A stretch of 64,000 nucleotides of DNA from Boseongicola sp. SB0665_bin_10 (lineage in GTDB: Bacteria; Pseudomonadota; Alphaproteobacteria; Rhodobacterales; Rhodobacteraceae): contig VXSG01000097.1 in NCBI GenBank assembly GCA_009838075.1, positions 1-64,000 on the forward strand, in the 5' to 3' direction. A model generated the notes under the pieces. It did no database searches, was not told where the DNA came from, and saw only the letters and a list, made by a program, of their open reading frames with translations. How positions within the stretch are numbered: the first letter of the stretch is position 1; every line of letters begins with the position of its first letter. Shown here piece by piece: positions 14,221-30,326 of the stretch. Made by a program: the position numbers and the translations under genes.

Positions 14221-15594
14221 TCAATCGTCGTCGTCATCCGCTTCGGGGACAGCCACGAATTCCGGATAGGCCTCTATACCGAGTTCCACGACGTCCTGAC
14301 CCAACTGCTCCGCGCTCGGCGAGACACGCAGTCCGATGAGCCGGTCGATCAGCATCCAGATCACTGTCGAGACGCCAAAGACAAAGACGCCAATCGCAAC
14401 GATGCCGGTCAGCTGCACGAAAAGGTTTCCGCCCGCTGCAAGGCAGACGGCGAGCGTTCCCCAGATGCCGGCGAACAGGTGGGCCGGAATGGCGCCCACG
14501 ACGTCATCGACCCGAACCATCTCCAGCAGCCGGAGTCCCGCAACCGCAATGGCGCCTCCGACCCCGCCAATCAGGATCGCCCATTGGTGGTCGACGAGGT
14601 CCGGCCCGGCGGTGATCGCCACGAGCCCTGCGATCGCTCCGTTCAGCGTTGCCAGAAGGTCCATGCGTCCGAGGATTGGCTTGGACAGAACCAGCGCCGC
14701 CACGACGCCCGCTCCGGCCGCGATGTTGGTGTTGGCGAATATGTTGCTCAGCGCCACCGCGTCCGTTGCCGAATTCAGTGCGAGCTGGGAGCCGCCGTTG
14801 AATCCGAACCAGCCCAGCCAAAGGATGAACACGCCCAGCGTGACGATGGGGACGTTTGAGGGCGGCATCTGCCGAACGGTGCCGTCCTTGCGGAACCGTC
14901 CGCGCCGCGCACCGAGCAGCATGGCGCCGGACAGCGCGGCCCATCCCCCGGTCGAGTGCACGATCGTGGACCCAGCAAAGTCCTGGAAGCCCATTTCGGC
15001 CAGCCAGCCGCCGCCCCAGGTCCATGCGCCCACGATCGGATAGATGACGGCGGTCAGTATCGCCACGAACAGGAAGAACGACCACAGCCGCACGCGCTCG
15101 GCGAGTGTGCCGGAGATGATTGACGCCGTTGTCGCGACAAAGACCATCTGGAAGAACCAGTCCGACATCGTGGCATGTCCGGAGGAATCCGCCAGCAATG
15201 TTTCGCGGGCCTGGTCGATTGCGTCCGGAGCGGCGCTCAGGAGCGCGACCTCGCTGGCCGAGTTGCCGCGGAACAGCGAGAGCGATCCGAAGAAGCCGCC
15301 GTCTACGTCGACATACATGACGTTGTAGCCGATGACGTAGTAGGCCAACCCGGCAATCGAGTAGAGCCCGATGTTCTTCATGCAGATGACGGAGGCGTTC
15401 TTCGTGCGAACGGACCCGGCTTCCAGCATCGTGAAGCCGGCGCACATCCACATGACCAGTGCGCCCCAGATAAGAAACGCAAACGTGTTGAGCACGAATC
15501 CGGTTTCCGCGCCGACCGGCGCCTGCGCCATGGCTGAGGCCGGCAGAAGACCCAGAATCGCTGCGAGTCCCAGAATTTCAATCAGCTTTTGCAT
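14221..15594 (-). CDS. amtB: Ammonium transporter
   Basis: Signal-like N-terminus MQKLIEILGLAAILGLLPASAMAQ, WGGGWLAEMGFQDFAGSTIVHSTGGWAAL, C-terminal QDVVELGIEAYPEF. Confidence 0.95.
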   Translation of the reverse strand: MQKLIEILGLAAILGLLPASAMAQAPVGAETGFVLNTFAFLIWGALVMWMCAGFTMLEAGSVRTKNASVICMKNIGLYSIAGLAYYVIGYNVMYVDVDGGFFGSLSLFRGNSASEVALLSAAPDAIDQARETLLADSSGHATMSDWFFQMVFVATTASIISGTLAERVRLWSFFLFVAILTAVIYPIVGAWTWGGGWLAEMGFQDFAGSTIVHSTGGWAALSGAMLLGARRGRFRKDGTVRQMPPSNVPIVTLGVFILWLGWFGFNGGSQLALNSATDAVALSNIFANTNIAAGAGVVAALVLSKPILGRMDLLATLNGAIAGLVAITAGPDLVDHQWAILIGGVGGAIAVAGLRLLEMVRVDDVVGAIPAHLFAGIWGTLAVCLAAGGNLFVQLTGIVAIGVFVFGVSTVIWMLIDRLIGLRVSPSAEQLGQDVVELGIEAYPEFVAVPEADDDDD

Positions 15595-15806
15595 GATGAT
15601 CGTGTCCCTGTCTTTCGTGAACGCACTTTGGCATGTCACGGCGGAGCCCGAAAATCAACGCTGAACCTGACATGACAATCCGATTGTGCCCTTGACACCG
15701 CGATGCATCGTCGGCAGACAATTGACGGAAATTACGCGCGGAAAATGCTGCTTGTCACTTTCGTGGCAAGTTCATGGCCGCGCAAGTCTTGGGTAAGGAG
15801 ATTGAG

Positions 15807-16160
15807 ATGGATTGCAGAGCCTCGCGGGACGGACACGCTGTGGTCGTCGAAGTCGAAGGACGCATCGACGGTGCCACGGCCGGGGATCTGGAGAATTCTA
15901 TGATGGCCGAAATCGAGGACACGGACAAGGTTGTGGTCTGTGACCTCAACGGCGTTTCATATGTCAGCAGCGCCGGACTCCGGGCAATTCTCGTCGTTGC
16001 CAAGCGACTCTCCAAGCAGGCGGTGGATTTCTCGATCTGCGGGCTCAACGGCCCCGTGGCCGAAGTGTTCCACATTTCCGGATTTGACAGGATTTTCAAG
16101 GTTTACGAAAAGCGCGAAGAGGCACTGGCAGAAGCGACCGCCAATTCAGGACAGGCCTAA
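15807..16160 (+). CDS. STAS-domain anti-sigma factor antagonist (RsbV/SpoIIAA-like)
   Basis: DLNGVSYVSSAGLRAILVVAK phosphorylatable-Ser motif; ATG 15807 preceded by AAGGAG. Confidence 0.9.
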   Translation: MDCRASRDGHAVVVEVEGRIDGATAGDLENSMMAEIEDTDKVVVCDLNGVSYVSSAGLRAILVVAKRLSKQAVDFSICGLNGPVAEVFHISGFDRIFKVYEKREEALAEATANSGQA

Positions 16161-16161
16161 A

Positions 16162-16653
16162 ATGTCCAAGGTGGAGCGCCTTGAGATTGACAGCCAGGTC
16201 GAAAACCTCACAAAGATCGAGGCTTGGATAGATTCATTCTGCGAATCTCACTTCCCGGCGGTTGAGTTCAGGCACAAGATGCATCTTGTCATCGAGGAAC
16301 TGTTCATGAACGCCGTCATGCATGGCTACGGAGGAGACCGCAAGGACGGCCCGATCTGGCTTGCCCTGCATCCGTTGCCCGAAGGTGCGGCGCTCGTCAT
16401 AGAGGATGACGCGCCGCCTTTCAATGTCCTTGAGGACGGTCCAGCACCGGATACGCAGTCCGGCGTGGAGGACAGACCGATCGGCGGGCTTGGCATCATG
16501 CTGGTCCGGAACATGGCCGACCACGTAAGCTACGACTACGACAAGCGCAATCGGATCACCACGGTCTTTGGCCGCGGGCCGCCGCCCGGCGGCGGCGCGG
16601 ATATGGACGTGGAAGGATCGGCAGCGGCCGGGCTGCAGGGGTCGTCGCCATGA
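16162..16653 (+). CDS. GHKL ATP-binding anti-sigma factor kinase (RsbW/SpoIIAB-like)
   Basis: HLVIEELFMNAVMHGYGG N-box, LVIEDDAPPFN, GGLGIMLVRNMAD G2 box. Confidence 0.9.
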   Translation: MSKVERLEIDSQVENLTKIEAWIDSFCESHFPAVEFRHKMHLVIEELFMNAVMHGYGGDRKDGPIWLALHPLPEGAALVIEDDAPPFNVLEDGPAPDTQSGVEDRPIGGLGIMLVRNMADHVSYDYDKRNRITTVFGRGPPPGGGADMDVEGSAAAGLQGSSP

Positions 16654-16680
16654 AGTTCGGCAAGTCAAGGCGGTCAAGAG

Positions 16681-17424
16681 ATGCGACCCGGTAGGCTGAC
16701 GATCCAGTTCATCTTCGTGCTTTGCCTGTTGCCGATCGTCGGGCTGTCGGTTGCGGGCGTTCTGAACTACCTGAAATTCGAGCGACTTCTCACGTCGAAT
16801 GTTGCGGCCCGCTACGACGCCGTGCTGCGCGACCTGGTCTTGGCCATCGGGAACAGCCTCGAGGAGGGGTTGACGCTGGGCACGACGAGATCGACCGAAC
16901 AGTTGATCCAGCGCTCCGTAAGCCAGTTCGAAGGCGCCTTCGACCTTTTCGTGACGGACGTAGATGGCGTGCTGCTCTACACGACCAGGCCATCTGCCGA
17001 GGAACAGGACAACGCCGCGTTCGAAGAAGGGGTTGCGGAGCTTGAGATCCCGACGCCGGGTGACGTCCTGCACACTTTCGGTTCCGGAGAAGGCTTCTCG
17101 GCCCGAATGGCAATCCTGCAGAACGGCAGGCCGGTCGGGACGCTTGTGCTGTCACATGACGGTGGCGATGTCATGGGAGACCTGGACGAGACATCGTTGC
17201 ATCTCGTCAATGCGCTGCTTGGCTCCTTGCTGCCGGTCATTCCGCTCCTGGTTCTCGGAACCGTGGTGGTCCTGGGGCGAATCGAGGGGCAGATCGCGAA
17301 GCGAAGCGAAACCTTGCATCAGGCGAGCGAACCCGAAGCCCCCGAGCCCGCGTCTCCCGACCCGCTCGTGCACGCGGTATGGAAGATCGGGCAGGAGATG
17401 GCCAATGCGCGGAAGGCCGGATGA
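16681..17424 (+). CDS. Membrane sensor-like protein, two TM segments flanking an extracytoplasmic domain
   Basis: N-terminal TM (LTIQFIFVLCLLPIVGLSVAGVLNY), C-proximal TM (LLGSLLPVIPLLVLGTVVVLG); no family firmly recognised. Confidence 0.65.
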   Translation: MRPGRLTIQFIFVLCLLPIVGLSVAGVLNYLKFERLLTSNVAARYDAVLRDLVLAIGNSLEEGLTLGTTRSTEQLIQRSVSQFEGAFDLFVTDVDGVLLYTTRPSAEEQDNAAFEEGVAELEIPTPGDVLHTFGSGEGFSARMAILQNGRPVGTLVLSHDGGDVMGDLDETSLHLVNALLGSLLPVIPLLVLGTVVVLGRIEGQIAKRSETLHQASEPEAPEPASPDPLVHAVWKIGQEMANARKAG

Positions 17425-17425
17425 C

Positions 17426-19576
17426 ATGAAGTCCCGTTTTCTCGCTTTCTTCATGCTGGCCCTGATTCTGCTGACGCTGATTCCGTTTCTGCTGTTCGGG
17501 ATACTGTCGGTTCGCACATTCGAGGCTCGCCTTCTGCCGGAAGTGGAGAACCAGACGATCAATTCCGCTCTGAGCCTCCAGCGACGCCTCAATCTCGCAA
17601 TTGCGTTCTCCGGCGGCTTGGAATCGTTGCGCGGAGTCGAAGAGACGCTTGACGCGACTCGGTCATTTTCGGCAGGCATGGAGTTTCTGGCGTTGACGGA
17701 TCCGGACGGAGAGATTCTCTACCTTTCCGCAAGTGATCCGGACAGCGTTGCCGGAACACTTTCCAAGCTGGCCGATCCGGCCCCGATGGCGATGGCCGAA
17801 CGGCTATTTGGCACATGGGAGAAGGTGACCGGCAGGCCGCTTCTCTCTCCCATCGAGATGTCCGGTCGCCGGATGGGCAACCTGCTCCTGTCCAGCCTGC
17901 CGCTCGGGAGAGACCCCGACAGTCCCGATGGCTTCCTGCATGCAGGTGTCAATATCGAGGTGATCGATGCACTGACGCGTGACATCTGGTTTGACATAGT
18001 CACCGTGGTGATTGCGGTCGCCCTTGTGGCCATCGAGTTCCTGATCCTGATCTACGCCGTACTGATCATCCGCCCTCTCTGGATGATCGAATTCCTCACG
18101 GCCAGGCTGCTGGTCAAGGATCTGCGTTTCGTGCCTGCGTCCCTGTGGGGCGGCGGCATGCAGAAGCTGGTTCGTCGGATCAACGAGGTGATCTGGCGAG
18201 GCGTTGACATCGCCAAGACCCGCGCGGGCGAGATTGGGCTGCTCCTGCCAGGTGCCGACGGCCCCCGACCGATTCGGTCTCCGGCTGTCTCGTACATCCG
18301 CCTTCCCCTTTTCATGTTCTTCCTCTCGGAGGCCATCCTGCGACCGATCCTGCCGCAGTTTCTGGGACAGTTTGCGCCGCCTGACAGCGACCCGGGTCTG
18401 CGGATCGGCCAGATCATGGCCGGTTTCATGGCGGCATCCCTGATTTCAGTGCTTGTCGGCTCGGTTCTCGCGGAGCGTTTCGGCGCCCGACGTGTCTTCT
18501 TCTGGGGCGCCGTCCTGAGCGCCGCCGGCATAGCGGGCCATCTCGCCGCGCAGGGCTTTGCCAGCATCCTGCTATCGAGGTCGCTCACGGGATTCGGCTA
18601 CGGGCTGGTTTACGCTGCGGCGCAGATCTACATCAGCCAGCATGCAAAGCGTGATCGCCGAAGCTCCGGGTTTTCGGTGTTCTTTGCCGTGGTCGTCTCC
18701 GCCGAAATCTGCGGCCCGGCCTTGGGCGGCGTGCTGGCGGACAGGCTTGGCCTGGCTTCCGCACTGGTGGCGGCAACCGTCGTCGCGGCAGTTTCGGCAT
18801 TGCTCTGCATGCTTGTCATCTCCCGCTTGGTGCCGGACCTTACGGATGCTTCGGCCACGCCGGAGGATGTTGCCGAGGCAGAGGCCGAAGACCATGTCAC
18901 GAGACAACTGCCCGGCGTGCAATGGGACGCGTTCCGGACAGTCCTGCTGAATCCGAGATTCATGGTCGCCATGATCTGTTTCGCGATTCCTGCCAAGGCG
19001 CTCCTGACCGGGGGCCTGTTCCTCCTGATGCCGCTGGCGGTCGTGGGGTCGGGAGGCAGCGTCGCGGACAGCGCCCGCGTGCTCATGGCCTATGGCATTG
19101 CCATTCTTCTGCTGGCGCCGATTGTGTCGCCGCTCGCCGATCGCTGGCGAAAGTTCCATCTTTGGGTGGCCGTGGGCTGCGGCGTTGCGGGGATAGGGCT
19201 CGTCCTGCCTCACACGTTGCACACGCTCGGCCACGGAGGATTGATCGTGCTCATGGTCGCCACGTTGCTCTTTGGTGTGGGCCAGACCTTGTCTATCCCG
19301 GCTCAGATCAGCTATCTCATGCATGTGTCCGAGACGAGAGGTCCCAGCACCAGCGCGGGTGCGGTGCTAGGCGTCTTTCGTTTCATCGAGCGCCTGGGTT
19401 CGCTTTTTGGCCCGTTGGTCGCGAGCGGCTTGCTGCTGGCGTCGACACCGGAGGAGGCGCTAATGTTGATGGGCATTGCGGCCGTGCTGCTGATGGCCTG
19501 CGGATTGAGCTGGTATCTGGCATTCGGGGATCAGGAGGAGGGAGATGCGATTCGTGCCTTGCTTTTCGAGACGTGA
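17426..19576 (+). CDS. MFS transporter with N-terminal TM-extracytoplasmic sensor-like domain
   Basis: MKSRFLAFFMLALILLTLIPFLLFGILSVRTFEARLLPEVENQ... extracytoplasmic region, then MFS helices and motifs (GSVLAERFGARRVFF, GFGYGLVYAAAQIYIS, SPLADRWRKFHLW). Confidence 0.8.
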   Translation: MKSRFLAFFMLALILLTLIPFLLFGILSVRTFEARLLPEVENQTINSALSLQRRLNLAIAFSGGLESLRGVEETLDATRSFSAGMEFLALTDPDGEILYLSASDPDSVAGTLSKLADPAPMAMAERLFGTWEKVTGRPLLSPIEMSGRRMGNLLLSSLPLGRDPDSPDGFLHAGVNIEVIDALTRDIWFDIVTVVIAVALVAIEFLILIYAVLIIRPLWMIEFLTARLLVKDLRFVPASLWGGGMQKLVRRINEVIWRGVDIAKTRAGEIGLLLPGADGPRPIRSPAVSYIRLPLFMFFLSEAILRPILPQFLGQFAPPDSDPGLRIGQIMAGFMAASLISVLVGSVLAERFGARRVFFWGAVLSAAGIAGHLAAQGFASILLSRSLTGFGYGLVYAAAQIYISQHAKRDRRSSGFSVFFAVVVSAEICGPALGGVLADRLGLASALVAATVVAAVSALLCMLVISRLVPDLTDASATPEDVAEAEAEDHVTRQLPGVQWDAFRTVLLNPRFMVAMICFAIPAKALLTGGLFLLMPLAVVGSGGSVADSARVLMAYGIAILLLAPIVSPLADRWRKFHLWVAVGCGVAGIGLVLPHTLHTLGHGGLIVLMVATLLFGVGQTLSIPAQISYLMHVSETRGPSTSAGAVLGVFRFIERLGSLFGPLVASGLLLASTPEEALMLMGIAAVLLMACGLSWYLAFGDQEEGDAIRALLFET

Positions 19577-20585
19577 ACTGATTGTCGGGTCACTGGCCTT
19601 CGGAGTGGCCGGTTCGATGCCCGAACGCCTGCGCGCGGATGCGGCGGGCAAGTCAGTATTCATGGTTCTGTGGCGGGGCGAAACCGAAGTCGAGGAGGGC
19701 TTTCGCGCACATTTCGCCGAAGCCGACGTTCCGATCGATTTCACGATTCGGTCCCTTGACCGGGACGTGAGCAAGCTTCCGTCCATCATCGAGGAGATCC
19801 AGCGCGTCGAGCCCGATCTCGTCTACACCTGGGGCACCTCGGTCACTCTCGGCATTGCCGGCCGGGATCCCGAACTGGCGGAAGGTCCGGACGACTATCC
19901 GCCCATGATTCTCGACCGGCCGGTCCTGTTCACGATGGTGTCGCAGCCCGTACGCTCACGCATCATTGAGGAGTTCGGCCCGACGGGCCGCAACGTGACC
20001 GGCGTCAGTCACATCGTGCCCGTGGAGACGCAGGTCAGCGCGATGATGGCCTACATGCCGGTGGACCGCATCGCGGTCATCTTCACCCCCACGGAGACGA
20101 ATTCCGTGCTGGCCGTGGAACAGCTTGTCGCTCTGGGAGATCGTGAAGGCATCCGGGTCGACGAATTTCCGGTGCCGCTGGACTCCGGGGGCAATCCCAG
20201 CCGGGAGGCCTTGCCGGAGCTGATTGACAAGGCGGCGGACGGCGGGCCGCAATTCCTCTATCTGGGACCTGACAGCTTCGTCGGCGAGCACGCGAAGTAC
20301 ATCACCGGTCTTGCGAATGAGAAGCGGCTCCCCTCCTTTGCCTCGACCGAGCGGATGCTTGCCTCGTCGGACGCTCTGTACGGACTGGTGGCGCCTTACC
20401 GGAAGGTCGGGCGCTTCACGGCCCAGAAGGCGGAGCAAATACTTTGCGGCGAGAAAGCCGTGTCGGACATTCCCGTCGAGGTGATGCCGGAATTCTCGTA
20501 CCAGATCCGGGTGGACGTCGCGCAGTCTCTCAACATCCTGCCCAATCTTTCGCTTCTCGACTACGCGGAAATCATTGGCCAATGA
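19545..20585 (+). CDS. ABC transporter substrate-binding protein (TrpX-like / PF04392-type)
   Basis: Twin-arginine-like signal SRRELIVGSLAFGVAG; VEPDLVYTWGTSVTLG, PVLFTMVSQPV, GRNVTGVSH motifs. Confidence 0.82.
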   Translation: MRFVPCFSRRELIVGSLAFGVAGSMPERLRADAAGKSVFMVLWRGETEVEEGFRAHFAEADVPIDFTIRSLDRDVSKLPSIIEEIQRVEPDLVYTWGTSVTLGIAGRDPELAEGPDDYPPMILDRPVLFTMVSQPVRSRIIEEFGPTGRNVTGVSHIVPVETQVSAMMAYMPVDRIAVIFTPTETNSVLAVEQLVALGDREGIRVDEFPVPLDSGGNPSREALPELIDKAADGGPQFLYLGPDSFVGEHAKYITGLANEKRLPSFASTERMLASSDALYGLVAPYRKVGRFTAQKAEQILCGEKAVSDIPVEVMPEFSYQIRVDVAQSLNILPNLSLLDYAEIIGQ

Positions 20586-21328
20586 CCGCGACCCCTCTCC
20601 CAGCGGGCCCAGGCAAGAACGTGGGGAGGGGCAGGCTGAGCGATGTCGCCGGGCGCCGCCTGGACCGGACGGCTCGTGACATCCCTGCCGGCACCGGCCT
20701 GCGGCTTGCCACGATGGAGGACGTTCCGGCGCTGGTGGACATCGTCGACTGGGCGACAAGCCAGACGAAACGGGAGGGCCTGTTCCTGCGCATGTCCGAG
20801 GAATTTCTGGCCAAGTTCGTCAGGGACGGATTCGTGGTTCTTCCGGTGTCGGACAGCAAGATACTCGGATACAGCAACGCGATGCAGGCAAACAGCGACC
20901 ATCCGCCCTTCCTTGACGGGTCGTACAGCCGGGCGCCGGGTCTCCTCTTTGGCACCGTGCTCGGCCCCGAGGCGCGTGCCCAGGGCTGGCACGGCAGGTT
21001 GATCCGGATCCGAATGGACATCTTCCGCGAGGCTGGCATTGATTCCGTGCAATGCACGGTGTCGCCCTACAATCGGGTTTCCCTCGGCAACCTTCTGGCT
21101 GCCGGTTTCCGCGCCTACGGATTGAAGGACTTGCTTGACGGACATCCTCGATTTCTGCTTCGGCATGACTTTGAACAAGAGGCGATGCCGGGCCCGTATT
21201 GCAAGCTGGCACTGCCGGAGTCAGGAAGCGTGGCAGACCACGGGGCGTTGCTGGCGGACGGCTATGTCGGCGTGAGCCTGGAACGGGGCGAGACCAACGC
21301 CCTGTGCTACGTGGCGGGATCCGGGTAG
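20582..21328 (+). CDS. GNAT-like N-acetyltransferase
   Basis: GLRLATMEDVPALVDIVDWA..., GTVLGPEARAQGWHGRLIRIRMDIFREAGIDSVQCTVSPYNRVSLGNLLAAGFR; ATGA overlap with the upstream gene. Confidence 0.7.
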   Translation: MTATPLPAGPGKNVGRGRLSDVAGRRLDRTARDIPAGTGLRLATMEDVPALVDIVDWATSQTKREGLFLRMSEEFLAKFVRDGFVVLPVSDSKILGYSNAMQANSDHPPFLDGSYSRAPGLLFGTVLGPEARAQGWHGRLIRIRMDIFREAGIDSVQCTVSPYNRVSLGNLLAAGFRAYGLKDLLDGHPRFLLRHDFEQEAMPGPYCKLALPESGSVADHGALLADGYVGVSLERGETNALCYVAGSG

Positions 21329-21355
21329 GGTCGCGGGGGTCGATGGTTCGGAGAG

Positions 21356-23278
21356 ATGACGGCAAGCTCCACAAAGCACGGAACCCGGAAGGGGCGAAGC
21401 CTGCGGCGCGGGATCACCATGATTGCTGCCGCCGCCCTGGTGGCAGTATCGGGAATCATCATCGCCTACGCGGAATTCCGCAATGACCTGGTGAGCCGGA
21501 GATACGAGTCGTCTTGGATCGAAGTGCAGTCGGATTTGCTCGACACGATGCTGGAACTCTATCGCGGGCGCCTGGGAGACGTCTCAAGGACGGTTGTCCT
21601 GGATGCCGAGATTGACGCAGCGCTGAGAAACGGCAGCTCGGATGATCTCAACAGGATGCTCGAGCAAGTCAGGAACACGGTGCGTGCACGGCCTGAGTTC
21701 GCCGTGCTTTCCGCCTCGGGGCAGATTCTGGCCACCACGGGCGACGAGGCCGGACTGGTTGAATCGGGCGCGGTCGAGGAAAGGGCCACAGATGCCATCC
21801 GAAACCGCATCATCGTCGCTCCAAGCGGCTCGCCGTTCCTGGTGCATTATTCGCCGGTACGGCGCGGCGACGTCGTCGTGGCGCAGGTCGTGGCGTATCT
21901 TGAAATCAGTGACGGGATCTCGTTCTTTTTTCCGGACCTGATCGGGCTGGCGCTTTCACAACCAAAGGGCGGGCTGCTCGGGCTTGCGGGAGATGTGCCG
22001 GAACTCGAATCCGCCCTTCCGGAACCCGATGGACAGGCACGGCATCAGATCATGTCCAGCTCGGATGGCAGGCGTTTCGACGTGGCGACCCTGCCGCTCA
22101 GGGACGAGGACGGAAACTTCTCCGGCGAACTCGTTCTCCTGAGGGACATCTCTGACGCGCTGGAGCGCGAGGAAGTTCTTGCCACGCTGGCGTTCTCGTC
22201 GGTGCTGGTCATAGTTCTCCTGTCGCTTGGGCTGCTTGCTCGGGCGCTTCGCCTTGGATTTCGGCCCTTGGGGGCAGTGGTGTACCTGCTCGATGCCATG
22301 GCGCGCGGCGAAACCGGCCTGCGCATGCGAAACGTCGAGCCGCCTCCGGAGCCCGAGAGTGACGTCGAAGGGGTGCCTGAACGGTTCGCGTACCACAGTG
22401 TCGCCAGGAAAGACCAAGAGCCCGACAGTTCCGGCTCGACGAGTCTCGCCCAGCGGTCGGTGGCGGAAATTGATACGCTTCTTGACACGGTGGAGCGGTT
22501 CCGTGCCAGCATAGACGCTCGTAATGCCTTGATCGCCGTGCAGGAGCAGCTCGAGAGCGCAAGGCGAATTCAGCAATCGCTGCTTCCTGAGGATTTTGAC
22601 CTGCATCCCGGTCTCGACTTCAGCGGGCGGATGCGTGCCGCCCAGGATGTCGGCGGGGACTTTTTCGACGCGTTTCCGGTGGACGACGGCCGCGTAGCGG
22701 CAGTGATCGCGGACGTGTCCGGCAAGGGCATCGCCGCGGCGCTCTTTGCCGCGCAGGCAAGTGTTGTTCTGCGGTCGCATTGCCAAACGCCAGAAAACCT
22801 GCCCGTGCAGATACAGGCGGCGAACAACGCGCTCTGCCAACGCAACCCCGAAGAGATGTTCCTTACCGCGATCGTGGCCTTCATCACGCCGCGAACTGGT
22901 GAGGTTGCCTTCGTCAATGCGGGCCACTGTCCACCTATGATCGCCGGCATTGACGGGAAGGTCAGACTTGAAATGCGGCCGCCAAATCTCGTGCTCGGGG
23001 TCCTGCCGGACGTGGACTGGTCGCTGCATCACCTGACCTTGGGTCCCGGGGAGAGCCTGCTATTTCACAGCGACGGATTCGACGAGGCACAGACAAAGGA
23101 AGGCGAGATACTGGGCCGGGACAAGTCAATGGAGATTTTTGGCAAGGTGATTGGCGAGGCTGAGAGCCAAGATTGCGCGGCCGTGTCGGAACGCATTCTT
23201 GAAGAGATCGACCAGTTTGCCGGGGACGCGCCGCAGGCCGACGACATCACGCTGATTACGATGAAACTGGTTGACTGA
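21356..23278 (+). CDS. Membrane-bound SpoIIE-family PP2C phosphatase with extracytoplasmic sensor (RsbU-like)
   Basis: Two TM segments, linker, then AAQDVGGDFFDAF, ADVSGKGIAAALFAA, VNAGHCPPMI, LFHSDGFDEA, ADDITLITMKL. Confidence 0.92.
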   Translation: MTASSTKHGTRKGRSLRRGITMIAAAALVAVSGIIIAYAEFRNDLVSRRYESSWIEVQSDLLDTMLELYRGRLGDVSRTVVLDAEIDAALRNGSSDDLNRMLEQVRNTVRARPEFAVLSASGQILATTGDEAGLVESGAVEERATDAIRNRIIVAPSGSPFLVHYSPVRRGDVVVAQVVAYLEISDGISFFFPDLIGLALSQPKGGLLGLAGDVPELESALPEPDGQARHQIMSSSDGRRFDVATLPLRDEDGNFSGELVLLRDISDALEREEVLATLAFSSVLVIVLLSLGLLARALRLGFRPLGAVVYLLDAMARGETGLRMRNVEPPPEPESDVEGVPERFAYHSVARKDQEPDSSGSTSLAQRSVAEIDTLLDTVERFRASIDARNALIAVQEQLESARRIQQSLLPEDFDLHPGLDFSGRMRAAQDVGGDFFDAFPVDDGRVAAVIADVSGKGIAAALFAAQASVVLRSHCQTPENLPVQIQAANNALCQRNPEEMFLTAIVAFITPRTGEVAFVNAGHCPPMIAGIDGKVRLEMRPPNLVLGVLPDVDWSLHHLTLGPGESLLFHSDGFDEAQTKEGEILGRDKSMEIFGKVIGEAESQDCAAVSERILEEIDQFAGDAPQADDITLITMKLVD

Positions 23279-27335: not shown

Positions 27336-30326
27336 TCAGTCACGTGCCTCAACGCGCAGCTTCCCTTCCACTATCGTGCGCGTGAAGACGTCCGTCACCG
27401 CTTGCGCGGTGTCTTTCAGATGAGCCACGAGCGTGTCGAAGTCCGGGAAGTCGACACATCCAAGCATGAGTTCCCGGAATGCGTGGGGTGCGGTTTCCGG
27501 GTCGAACTGGCCTTCGAGACAAAGGCGGATGACCTGCTGAATCTGGGTATAAAGATGCAGCGCGTCGACGAGCGTCGCGGTTTCGTTTGCGCCGATCATC
27601 ACCGGACCAAGTGCCTCAAGCGTCGACCGCGTTTCGGCTCCCGGCGCCGGGAGGTCGTCCAGGACGTGGCCGGCGTGCAGGCGCAGGAACTGCGCGATGA
27701 ACTCGATGTCGATCAGGCCACCCGGAACCAGCTTCAGGTCCCAGACGTTCGCGGGAGGCTTTTCGTCCGCGATCCGCCGCCGCATCTCCGCCATGCTCTT
27801 GGCGGACTTTTTCACGTCGCGGACGGCAAAGAGAACGTCGTCAAGCACTTCCCAGACGTCAAGGGCAAGCGTCTGGTCGCCGGCAACGACGCGGGCGCGC
27901 GTCAACGCCATGTGCTCCCAGGTCCATGCTTCCTCGCGCTGATACCTGCTGAAGGCCTTGATGTTTGTTGCCACCGGACCCTTGTTGCCAGAGGGCCGAA
28001 GACGCATGTCAACTTCGTAGAGCACGCCCTCTGCGGTCGGGGCGGAGAGGGCGGCGATCAGCCGTCGCGTAAGCCGGGTGTAGTAGCGGACCGGGTCGAT
28101 CGGGTTGTCGCCATCCGATTCCGGGCAGTCGGGGTCGTGCGTGTAGAGCAGAATGATGTCGACGTCGGAATCTGCAGTCATCTCCAGGCTGCCGAGCTTT
28201 CCGAGGCCGACAATCGTCACCTTGCCGCCGGCGACGCGGCCGTGCGCGGCCTCCATTTCCCTCGTGACCGCAGCGAGCGCGGCCTGCATCGTCAGATCGG
28301 CTATGTCGGTGAATGCCCAGGCTGCGCGCTCGCCGCTGATTGCGCCGGTCAGGAGCCGCACGCCGATCAGGAACTTCTGTTCGGCGGCGAAGATGCGCAG
28401 GCGGTTGAGAATCTCCTCGTGGGCGAATTCGCCGTTGAGAAATGCGTCAAGGCGGTCCGACAGCACGCGACGGACTGGCAGTTCTGACAGCAGCGCCGGA
28501 TCCAGCATGCCGTCGAATATGTTCGGCTTGCGGCTTATGACAGTGGCGAGTTTCGGGGCGGCGCCGAGGATGTTCACCAGCAGCGACATCAGGCCGGAAT
28601 TGCTGCCGAGGACGGAGAAAAGCTGAATGCCGGCAGGCAATGCAGAAAGAAACGTGTCAAACTTCACGAGCGTCCCGTCAGGCTGCCCGGTATCGGCGAA
28701 TGTCTGCAAGAGCCGCGGCATGAGATCGGCAAGACGATGGCGCGCCGCGTCGGTCCGGGTTGCACGGTAGCGTCCGGACTGCCACGTCCGGACGGTTGAC
28801 GACACCTCGGACGGGCGTTGAAACCCCATCCTGCCCAGTGTTTCAAGAGTGTCCGGATCGTCGTCGTCACCGGCGAAGACAAAACTGCCTTCCTCGACCG
28901 GGTGGTCCTTGTCCTGCTCGAAGAGCCGGTCATAGTGGCCCTCGACCAGTTCCAGCGTCTTCCGAAACGTGTCGGCAAAGGACTCTGCGCTCTCAAATCC
29001 CATCATCAGGGCGAGTTCGCAGAGTTCTTCCTCGTTGTCCGGCAGCAAGTGGGTTTGCTCGTCGCGTCGCATCTGGATGCGGTGTTCGACATCGCGCAGG
29101 AACCAGTAGGCGTCCCGGAGCAGGATTTCCGTCTTGTGGTCGATCCATCCTTGCTCGGCCAGCGCCGCAAGGGTTCTCTCCGTCGGACGCGTGCGGAGCG
29201 CAGGCATGCGTCCGCCCGCAATCAGTTGCTGGGTCTGTGCAAAGAACTCGATTTCCCGAATGCCGCCGCGCCCGAGCTTGACGTTGTGTCCAAGCACCGT
29301 GATTTCGCCAAATCCCTTGTGCGCATGGATCTGCCGCTTGATCGAGTGGATGTCCGCGATGGCAACGTAATCGAGGTACTTGCGGAAGATGAACGGCGTC
29401 ATGTCCCTGCAAAAGGCGCCGCCGGTCTGCAGGTCGCCTGCCACGACGCCCGCCTTGATGTATGCCGCTCGCTCCCAGGTCTGGCCCCTGTCCTCGTAGT
29501 AGCGCATCGCGATTTCGTAGGGCAGGGCAAGTGCTGTGGAGCCGGGGTCCGGCCGCAGGCGGAGGTCGGTCCGGAAGACGTACCCGTCTCCCGTGCGTTC
29601 CTGCAGGATCTTGATGAGACGGCGGATCATGCGGGAGAAGATGCGTGTGGCCTCGCCCTCATCCCTCACGATCCCTGCCTGCGGATCGTAGATCACAACG
29701 AGATCGATGTCGGAGGAGTAGTTCAGCTCGCCTGAACCGAGCTTGCCCATGCCGATGACGGCAAGTCCCGACGCCCTGCTCGGGTCCTCCGTGTCGTTCA
29801 GGACCAGCCTGCCGGAATTGTGCGCCGCCATCAGCACGTGATTGACTGCCGACGATGCGGCGGCGCGCGCGAAGGCGCTGAGCCACGAGGTGACCTTTCG
29901 CGCCTCGAGGACCCGCCTGAGGTCGTACAGTGCCAGCGAGAAGGCAAGCTGGCGCTTGAGCTCGCGCAGGCGTCGCATGATGTCAGGTTCCGCAGGGTGG
30001 GTTCGCCACGCCGCCCTTGCATCCTCGACAAGGCGATTGAGCAATCCGTCCGGCGCTTCAACAAAGGTCGGCAGGACGCATTCCGGGTGAGTGGTCGCGA
30101 TGCCGCGAAGATGCGGCGAAAGCGCGAGCGAAGCCAGAAGAAGGTCTCGGTTCCGCGATTCCTTGGCCAGAAACGCGATCAGCTCGGGTTGGTCGGACCT
30201 GGCTTCGCGAAGATCGCTCAACACCTCTTCGGCGACTTCCCCCGAAACGGATCTTATCGGCCTGCAGATGCCTGCAAGGAAGAGTTCGTCGGCTGCATCG
30301 GTGATCGTCGAAACCTGACCCGGCAT
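27336..30326 (-). CDS. glnE: Bifunctional glutamine synthetase adenylyltransferase/deadenylase
   Basis: 996 aa with two nucleotidyltransferase cores: GMGKLGSGELNYSSDIDLVVIYD and GLGKLGSLEMTADSDVDIILLYTHD. Confidence 0.96.
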   Translation of the reverse strand: MPGQVSTITDAADELFLAGICRPIRSVSGEVAEEVLSDLREARSDQPELIAFLAKESRNRDLLLASLALSPHLRGIATTHPECVLPTFVEAPDGLLNRLVEDARAAWRTHPAEPDIMRRLRELKRQLAFSLALYDLRRVLEARKVTSWLSAFARAAASSAVNHVLMAAHNSGRLVLNDTEDPSRASGLAVIGMGKLGSGELNYSSDIDLVVIYDPQAGIVRDEGEATRIFSRMIRRLIKILQERTGDGYVFRTDLRLRPDPGSTALALPYEIAMRYYEDRGQTWERAAYIKAGVVAGDLQTGGAFCRDMTPFIFRKYLDYVAIADIHSIKRQIHAHKGFGEITVLGHNVKLGRGGIREIEFFAQTQQLIAGGRMPALRTRPTERTLAALAEQGWIDHKTEILLRDAYWFLRDVEHRIQMRRDEQTHLLPDNEEELCELALMMGFESAESFADTFRKTLELVEGHYDRLFEQDKDHPVEEGSFVFAGDDDDPDTLETLGRMGFQRPSEVSSTVRTWQSGRYRATRTDAARHRLADLMPRLLQTFADTGQPDGTLVKFDTFLSALPAGIQLFSVLGSNSGLMSLLVNILGAAPKLATVISRKPNIFDGMLDPALLSELPVRRVLSDRLDAFLNGEFAHEEILNRLRIFAAEQKFLIGVRLLTGAISGERAAWAFTDIADLTMQAALAAVTREMEAAHGRVAGGKVTIVGLGKLGSLEMTADSDVDIILLYTHDPDCPESDGDNPIDPVRYYTRLTRRLIAALSAPTAEGVLYEVDMRLRPSGNKGPVATNIKAFSRYQREEAWTWEHMALTRARVVAGDQTLALDVWEVLDDVLFAVRDVKKSAKSMAEMRRRIADEKPPANVWDLKLVPGGLIDIEFIAQFLRLHAGHVLDDLPAPGAETRSTLEALGPVMIGANETATLVDALHLYTQIQQVIRLCLEGQFDPETAPHAFRELMLGCVDFPDFDTLVAHLKDTAQAVTDVFTRTIVEGKLRVEARD

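Follow-up and report, generated by a model that had tools for sequence, protein, structure and literature searches.

A three-protein extracytoplasmic cassette as the probable input of an RsbU/V/W-type partner switch in Boseongicola sp. SB0665_bin_10

What would a proteobacterial partner switch sense when its genes stand among those of transporter-like proteins? The question is raised by a locus (positions 15807-23278) of the marine bacterium Boseongicola sp. SB0665_bin_10, which was studied in a window of 64,000 nucleotides (positions 1 to 64,000 of contig VXSG01000097.1, assembly GCA_009838075.1, forward strand). A first-pass annotation of the window had described seven functionally linked, co-directional genes with short gaps or overlaps; an open reading frame (ORF) check found all seven ORFs where it had placed them, each on the + strand. 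Our answer is that the locus is probably one signalling unit. A trio comprising a small membrane sensor (TM3), a fusion of a Cache domain to a major facilitator superfamily (MFS) domain, and an orphan binding protein of family PF04392 would set a switch composed of a STAS protein, a HATPase kinase and a membrane SpoIIE phosphatase. This reading starts from what was observed: the gene set, its motifs, the shared Cache domains, the kept neighbourhood, gene fusions and exchanged output modules. It offers a concrete input for proteobacterial partner switches, whose signals are mostly unknown.

The intergenic distances across the seven genes are, in order, 1, 27, 1, -32, -4 and 27 nt, the overlaps being those of the PF04392 gene with the MFS-fusion gene (32 nt) and with the gene of a GNAT-fold protein (4 nt); such spacing would suit a single transcription unit. 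Because dN/dS was 0.13-0.33 in every one of the seven (versus two congeners), all are real coding genes under purifying selection. Promoter and terminator scans of the locus gave no signal above shuffles worth claiming.

A genome collection was scanned with the binding protein as the only seed, and the flanks of the resulting 79 loci (ca. 10 kb, in Alpha-, Beta- and Gammaproteobacteria) were covered by six-frame profile searches. Neither the MFS nor the switch genes were used in selecting loci, which makes this a fair test of the neighbourhood. The closest relatives in this public collection were Boseongicola and Silicimonas metagenome-assembled genomes (MAGs). In 72 of the 79 loci the MFS fusion lay immediately 5' of the binding-protein gene and in the same orientation; among the remaining seven, two were cut by a contig end (L098 and L107; L and G numbers are our handles for loci and genomes), two were rearranged with the MFS kept (L102, L075) and three lacked it (L057, L089, L091). 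At least one switch gene was found in 45/79 loci and all three in 29/79 (SpoIIE 43, HATPase 35, STAS 34). Counted by organism label, the figures were 52/56 for the MFS fusion and 34/56 for a switch gene. With five SpoIIE genes per genome, chance would place one in a given stretch of 20 kb in about 2% of cases. The complete gene set was kept in several family members at ca. 35-70% identity. Each of the families is also found alone elsewhere, as would be expected if an RsbUVW-type operon had merely come to lie beside unrelated transporter genes; that explanation is refuted by the neighbourhood counts, is opposed as well by the repeated fusions described below and by the retention of the gene set, and is considered extremely improbable. 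We conclude from these comparisons that the neighbourhood is not accidental and appears to be one conserved functional unit. The genes thus proved in this co-occurrence check to be regular, not rare, neighbours across three proteobacterial classes, in support of the linkage proposed at first pass.

The switch proteins themselves carry the residues expected of them. The SSAGLR motif, which holds the predicted phosphoacceptor Ser of the STAS protein, is invariant (36/36 relatives), as are the N-box (Glu46/Asn50) and G2 box (GGLG) of the HATPase (25/25 relatives) and the catalytic Asp435, Asp453, Asp573 and Asp629/630 of SpoIIE (30/30 sequences). Judged from sequence, the features of an RsbU/V/W-type switch (phosphoacceptor Ser, GHKL boxes, metal-binding aspartates) are all present, and the earlier suggestion that the switch is complete gains by their invariance. 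The STAS gene has an in-frame upstream ATG at 15774; the start at 15807 is the likelier, since 33 of 36 relatives have a Met aligned to the one there. The SpoIIE protein, the only one in its genome (4.8 Mb, 124 contigs), weakly matched NCBIfam SiaA (1.5e-6). The lack of an adjacent sigma factor, noted at first pass, was confirmed: Sigma70_r2 proteins numbered zero in the window and four in the genome, all on other contigs.

TM3 (247 aa) lacks a Pfam match. In its AlphaFold model (pLDDT 85), a PAS/Cache domain lies between two transmembrane (TM) segments, and the top Foldseek match of the model was the WalK/YycG sensor together with similar domains. In the MFS fusion (AlphaFold pLDDT 83.7, pTM 0.81), the MFS_1 match spans residues 296-663 only and constitutes a full domain, for which the nearest solved structures were EmrB, NorA and VMAT2; a GPxxGG-like motif was found in 59 of 77 such fusions. 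The N-terminal 285 residues hold the same single-Cache domain as TM3: the two ectodomain profiles aligned in hhalign at 1.9e-20 (0.13-0.15 with reversed profiles), and the SpoIIE ectodomain aligned with the dCache profile at 4.6e-8 (reversed-profile control 0.2) and with TM3 at 1.8e-6 (controls 0.2-0.41 over both), each of these E-values referring to one comparison. The ectodomains of TM3 and the MFS protein also matched the dCache profile, and that of SpoIIE is more distant from TM3 than that of the MFS protein is. On this profile evidence, TM3 and the N-terminus of the MFS protein have a homologous single-Cache domain in common, in line with the sensor-like protein and the extracytoplasmic domain-MFS fusion described at first pass; the separate extracytoplasmic domain then ascribed to SpoIIE is Cache-like too. 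A simple pattern search for the dCache amino-acid motif (R-x-W-Y) found none in the SpoIIE or kinase sensor domains. The MFS fusion reached the cut-off of no NCBIfam equivalog, and neither TM3 nor the GNAT-fold protein of the window matched any. The features are collected in Table 1.

Table 1. Genes of the locus and of its flanks, in window positions.
Feature	Position	Strand	Basis or setting
Ammonium transporter gene	14221-15639	-	diverges; upstream flank of locus
STAS-only anti-anti-sigma-type protein (RsbV/SpoIIAA-like)	15807-16160	+	PF01740 3.9e-21, TIGR00377 9.1e-22
Stand-alone HATPase_c_2 serine kinase (RsbW/SpoIIAB-like, predicted)	16162-16653	+	PF13581 1.9e-20
TM3 small membrane sensor: TM - single Cache - TM - short cytoplasmic helix	16681-17424	+	AlphaFold, Foldseek
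Cache-MFS fusion: TM - Cache - TM, then MFS domain akin to DHA-type exporters	17426-19576	+	MFS_1 7.4e-40
PF04392 (TrpX/TyrX-type) periplasmic binding protein, ABC_sub_bind	19545-20585	+	PF04392 6.4e-23
Divergent GNAT-fold protein	20582-21328	+	20/25 relatives match Acetyltransf_1; profile matches solved GNATs
Membrane SpoIIE/RsbU-type PP2C phosphatase, N-terminal Cache-like extracytoplasmic domain	21356-23278	+	PF07228 1.3e-43
TRAP transporter set	from 23934		downstream flank
GlnE (glutamine synthetase adenylyltransferase)	27336-30326	-	near locus

The binding protein was taken at first pass for an orphan without permease or ATPase, and this was borne out. Pfam searches found neither an ABC permease nor an ABC ATPase among the window genes between 14221 and 27297, and no cognate permease was seen beside the trio genes of relatives among the loci examined; the gene adjoins the MFS fusion instead. 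A cognate permease would not have escaped notice, as a second PF04392 gene in L104, separate from the trio, adjoins a BPD_transp_2 permease. A part in an ABC importer was accordingly considered and rejected, the permease not being beside the gene. Solved relatives, identified by profile match, are 6hni (Tyr bound), 3lft (Trp) and 3lkv (Phe) (PMC6816091). The TrpX/TyrX-type proteins CD0873, SP1069 and VC_1101 belong by profile to the same fold family; CD0873 and TrpX are parts of ABC importers, whereas the protein of the window pairs with an MFS fusion. When the pocket was compared by hand with that of CD0873 on the profile alignment, a Tyr was kept at the Tyr279 position and a Thr stood at the Glu263 position; these residues would argue against tryptophan and are too weak a guide for a ligand call. 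The PF04392 family and the alanine racemase neighbours described below suggest that the ligand is probably amino-acid-like. A possible twin-arginine signal (SRRELIVG) is seen at the N-terminus (19545-19620); it is present in close relatives and not in the distant L035. In one Silicimonas MAG, a second, near-identical binding-protein gene lies ca. 7 kb from the cassette (L033:14019-15050 = L046:232-1266), through duplication or an assembly artefact.

Independent gene fusions tie the switch to the sensor. The HATPase is fused, N-terminally and before TM1, to TM3 in L049, L050, L051, L055, L056, L058 and L059, and HATPase, TM3 and MFS form a single frame of ca. 1125 aa in L034/L054, L053 and L060; SpoIIE is fused to the HATPase in L087, L095, L105, L115 and L117. 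MAG artefacts do not account for every fusion, as L058 (Pseudooceanicola sp. HF7) is an isolate. The kinase thus has the sensor as its fusion partner in one lineage and the phosphatase in a different one.

For the ligand, the physical contacts, the direction of signalling and the output, we infer the following scheme. In the periplasm, the PF04392 protein would most likely capture a small ligand, probably of amino-acid-like nature, and present it to the Cache domains, the MFS protein or both. The HATPase, held at the membrane by TM3 (its fusion partner in several relatives), would phosphorylate the STAS protein, and the Cache-bearing SpoIIE would remove the phosphate. The ligand would shift the balance of kinase and phosphatase, hence the phosphorylation state of the STAS protein, which would gate a partner. 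Transport flux through the MFS protein may form part of the signal, or the protein may be a transceptor. The working model of the first-pass annotation is upheld for the most part, with relay from the binding protein to the sensors and the phosphatase as a putative step, and it is extended by the fusions and by the further uses of the trio described below.

The same genes could be arranged differently. If the STAS protein bound and gated the MFS, the binding protein collected its substrate and the Cache domains gave feedback, the locus would mainly be a transport system. STAS domains are established components of SulP transporters, no other partner accompanies the binding protein as constantly as the MFS protein does, and a xanthine/uracil permease gene lies between the STAS gene and the HATPase-TM3 fusion in L058 (4831-6606). 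Many MFS fusions, however, have no STAS gene nearby and are accompanied instead by a Ser/Thr kinase, a cyclase or secretion genes, so the STAS protein is not a general gate of the MFS; the fusion of a cytoplasmic kinase to the sensor likewise argues for signalling. We regard a regulated transporter as rather unlikely.

These other companions of the trio are varied. It stands beside a dCache-HAMP Ser/Thr kinase in beta- and gammaproteobacterial loci (L071, L077, L084 and L103, tested with Pfam; L093, L109 and L120, by similarity) and beside a dCache-HAMP adenylate cyclase in L116; in Competibacteraceae, a Ser/Thr kinase gene occurs together with STAS and SpoIIE. Some Alphaproteobacteria have a second, divergent TM3-MFS pair followed by SpoIIE (L076, L083, L085, L096, L112, L119). 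When five output labels were placed on an MFS tree (a quick search, with several long branches), 18 changes were counted versus a shuffled mean of 39; the labels were clustered yet interleaved. MFS and binding-protein genes were also found inside type VI secretion system (T6SS) clusters, namely on a Vibrio plasmid (L164) and in G268, G441, G361 and G046, with Pfam-checked VgrG, PAAR, TssA, Hcp and TssC in L164 and TssA and TssC in G046; the trio heads T6SS-type clusters in the Vibrio plasmid and in G441. In a 399-genome phylum sample, 12 genomes carried the MFS fusion or a protein closely related to it, and in four of those 12 (G208, G268, G361, G441) TssC lay ca. 8-10 kb away, which is not expected by chance. 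This physical linkage is better evidence for a T6SS tie than co-occurrence by genome (Fisher 0.017 in relatives, 0.07 in the phylum sample). From gene context, the trio is a candidate regulator of one T6SS class. We take the trio to be a portable cassette for extracytoplasmic sensing, apparently separable from the partner switch and employed with Ser/Thr kinases, an adenylate cyclase and T6SS as well. Neighbourhood and fusion associate it with at least four kinds of output. The trio or its MFS fusion was further noted in or beside T6SS clusters at L164:7004-18935, L177-L180, L036, L065 with L155, and L040. A T6SS as the output in the present strain was rejected: no TssC (PF05943) was found in its own genome or in seven congeners.

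Several points weigh against the trio-driven switch. Besides the single-comparison footing of the hhalign values, 34 of the 79 loci have no switch gene in the flanks fetched (e.g. Thalassospira; some contigs are short), the T6SS context is silent on the output in a strain whose genome has no T6SS, and the GNAT-fold protein has no obvious place in the scheme. The last has no Pfam match alone, and its motif reads RGxGLQ, which differs from the usual glycine-rich CoA loop.

A place for that protein would be found in a loop in which a small molecule that it makes or modifies is exported by the DHA-like MFS and the outside level of that molecule, read by the binding protein and the Cache domains, sets the switch; in other lineages an alanine racemase, or an alpha/beta hydrolase with a histidine phosphatase, would join it, giving a cell-cell or self-sensing circuit. 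A GNAT gene was near the binding-protein gene in 50/79 loci, an alanine racemase gene directly followed the GNAT gene in L076, L083, L112 and L159, and the alpha/beta hydrolase and histidine-phosphatase families recurred in 17 and 16 loci, respectively (beta- and gammaproteobacteria, e.g. L087:13645-15313); the exporters nearest to the MFS domain and its GPxxGG-like motif also fit. Against this stand the unusual CoA loop, the usual absence of GNAT from the Ser/Thr-kinase-linked and T6SS-linked versions, and the variation of the enzymes by lineage; these enzymes may also be targets of the switch. Such a make, export and sense loop is considered unlikely. Its wider form, quite unlikely in our estimate, would have GNAT, with or without racemase or hydrolase, make an amino-acid-derived compound that the Cache-MFS protein exports and senses, whose outside level PF04392 reports and which the switch reads out, the cassette then serving Proteobacteria at large as an input to STAS switches, Ser/Thr kinases, cyclases and T6SS.

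The preferred reading, a switch set by the trio, has partial parallels. RsbU/RsbV/RsbW and SpoIIE/SpoIIAA/SpoIIAB are alike in having a STAS protein, a GHKL serine kinase and a PP2C phosphatase with conserved motifs; here, by contrast, no sigma factor lies alongside, the kinase is sometimes fused to a membrane sensor, and the input is of the Cache/MFS/binding-protein kind. In Chlamydia RsbU and Pseudomonas SiaA, a membrane PP2C phosphatase with an extracytoplasmic sensor likewise acts on a STAS protein; we know of no Cache-MFS, TM3 or PF04392 partners in those systems, nor, to our knowledge and by description only, of an MFS or binding-protein partner in the RbaV system of Rhodobacter capsulatus. 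In the transporter-derived sensing of the UhpC/UhpB type, too, an MFS protein works with a signalling enzyme, in that case a histidine kinase; UhpC is not known to carry a Cache domain, nor is a PF04392 protein known to be involved. RbaV, from a related alphaproteobacterium, likewise is a STAS output; its serines are paired and its target is unknown, as are the outputs of several STAS systems under review (PMC8256260, in which the Chlamydia RsbU sensor domain is also cited). PMC8861277, citing Weber et al. 2009, describes the T6SS3 of Aliivibrio wodanis as having additional genes, vtsABCD, that code for transporter proteins; in Vibrio anguillarum these genes affect the stress response and hcp expression. 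Likened by description only, vtsABCD may be the nearest precedent of the trio and serves as a lead; unlike the window locus, that cluster has no partner switch reported. No published description of the cassette, or of SpoIIE/STAS with MFS or Cache, was found in the open-licence literature searched, and the cassette of Cache sensor, Cache-MFS fusion and orphan binding protein is apparently undescribed so far. Cultured isolates of Thalassospira, Pseudooceanicola, Rubricella and Motiliproteus carry the trio, which makes ligand and output directly testable.

The flanks recur in part as well. An ammonium transporter gene adjoins the STAS gene in the genus of the window and in several gammaproteobacterial loci (e.g. 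L087:15871-17247, - strand). GlnE lies directly upstream of STAS in several Rhodobacteraceae (L050, L051, L054, L055, L060), a proximity that may be simple synteny.

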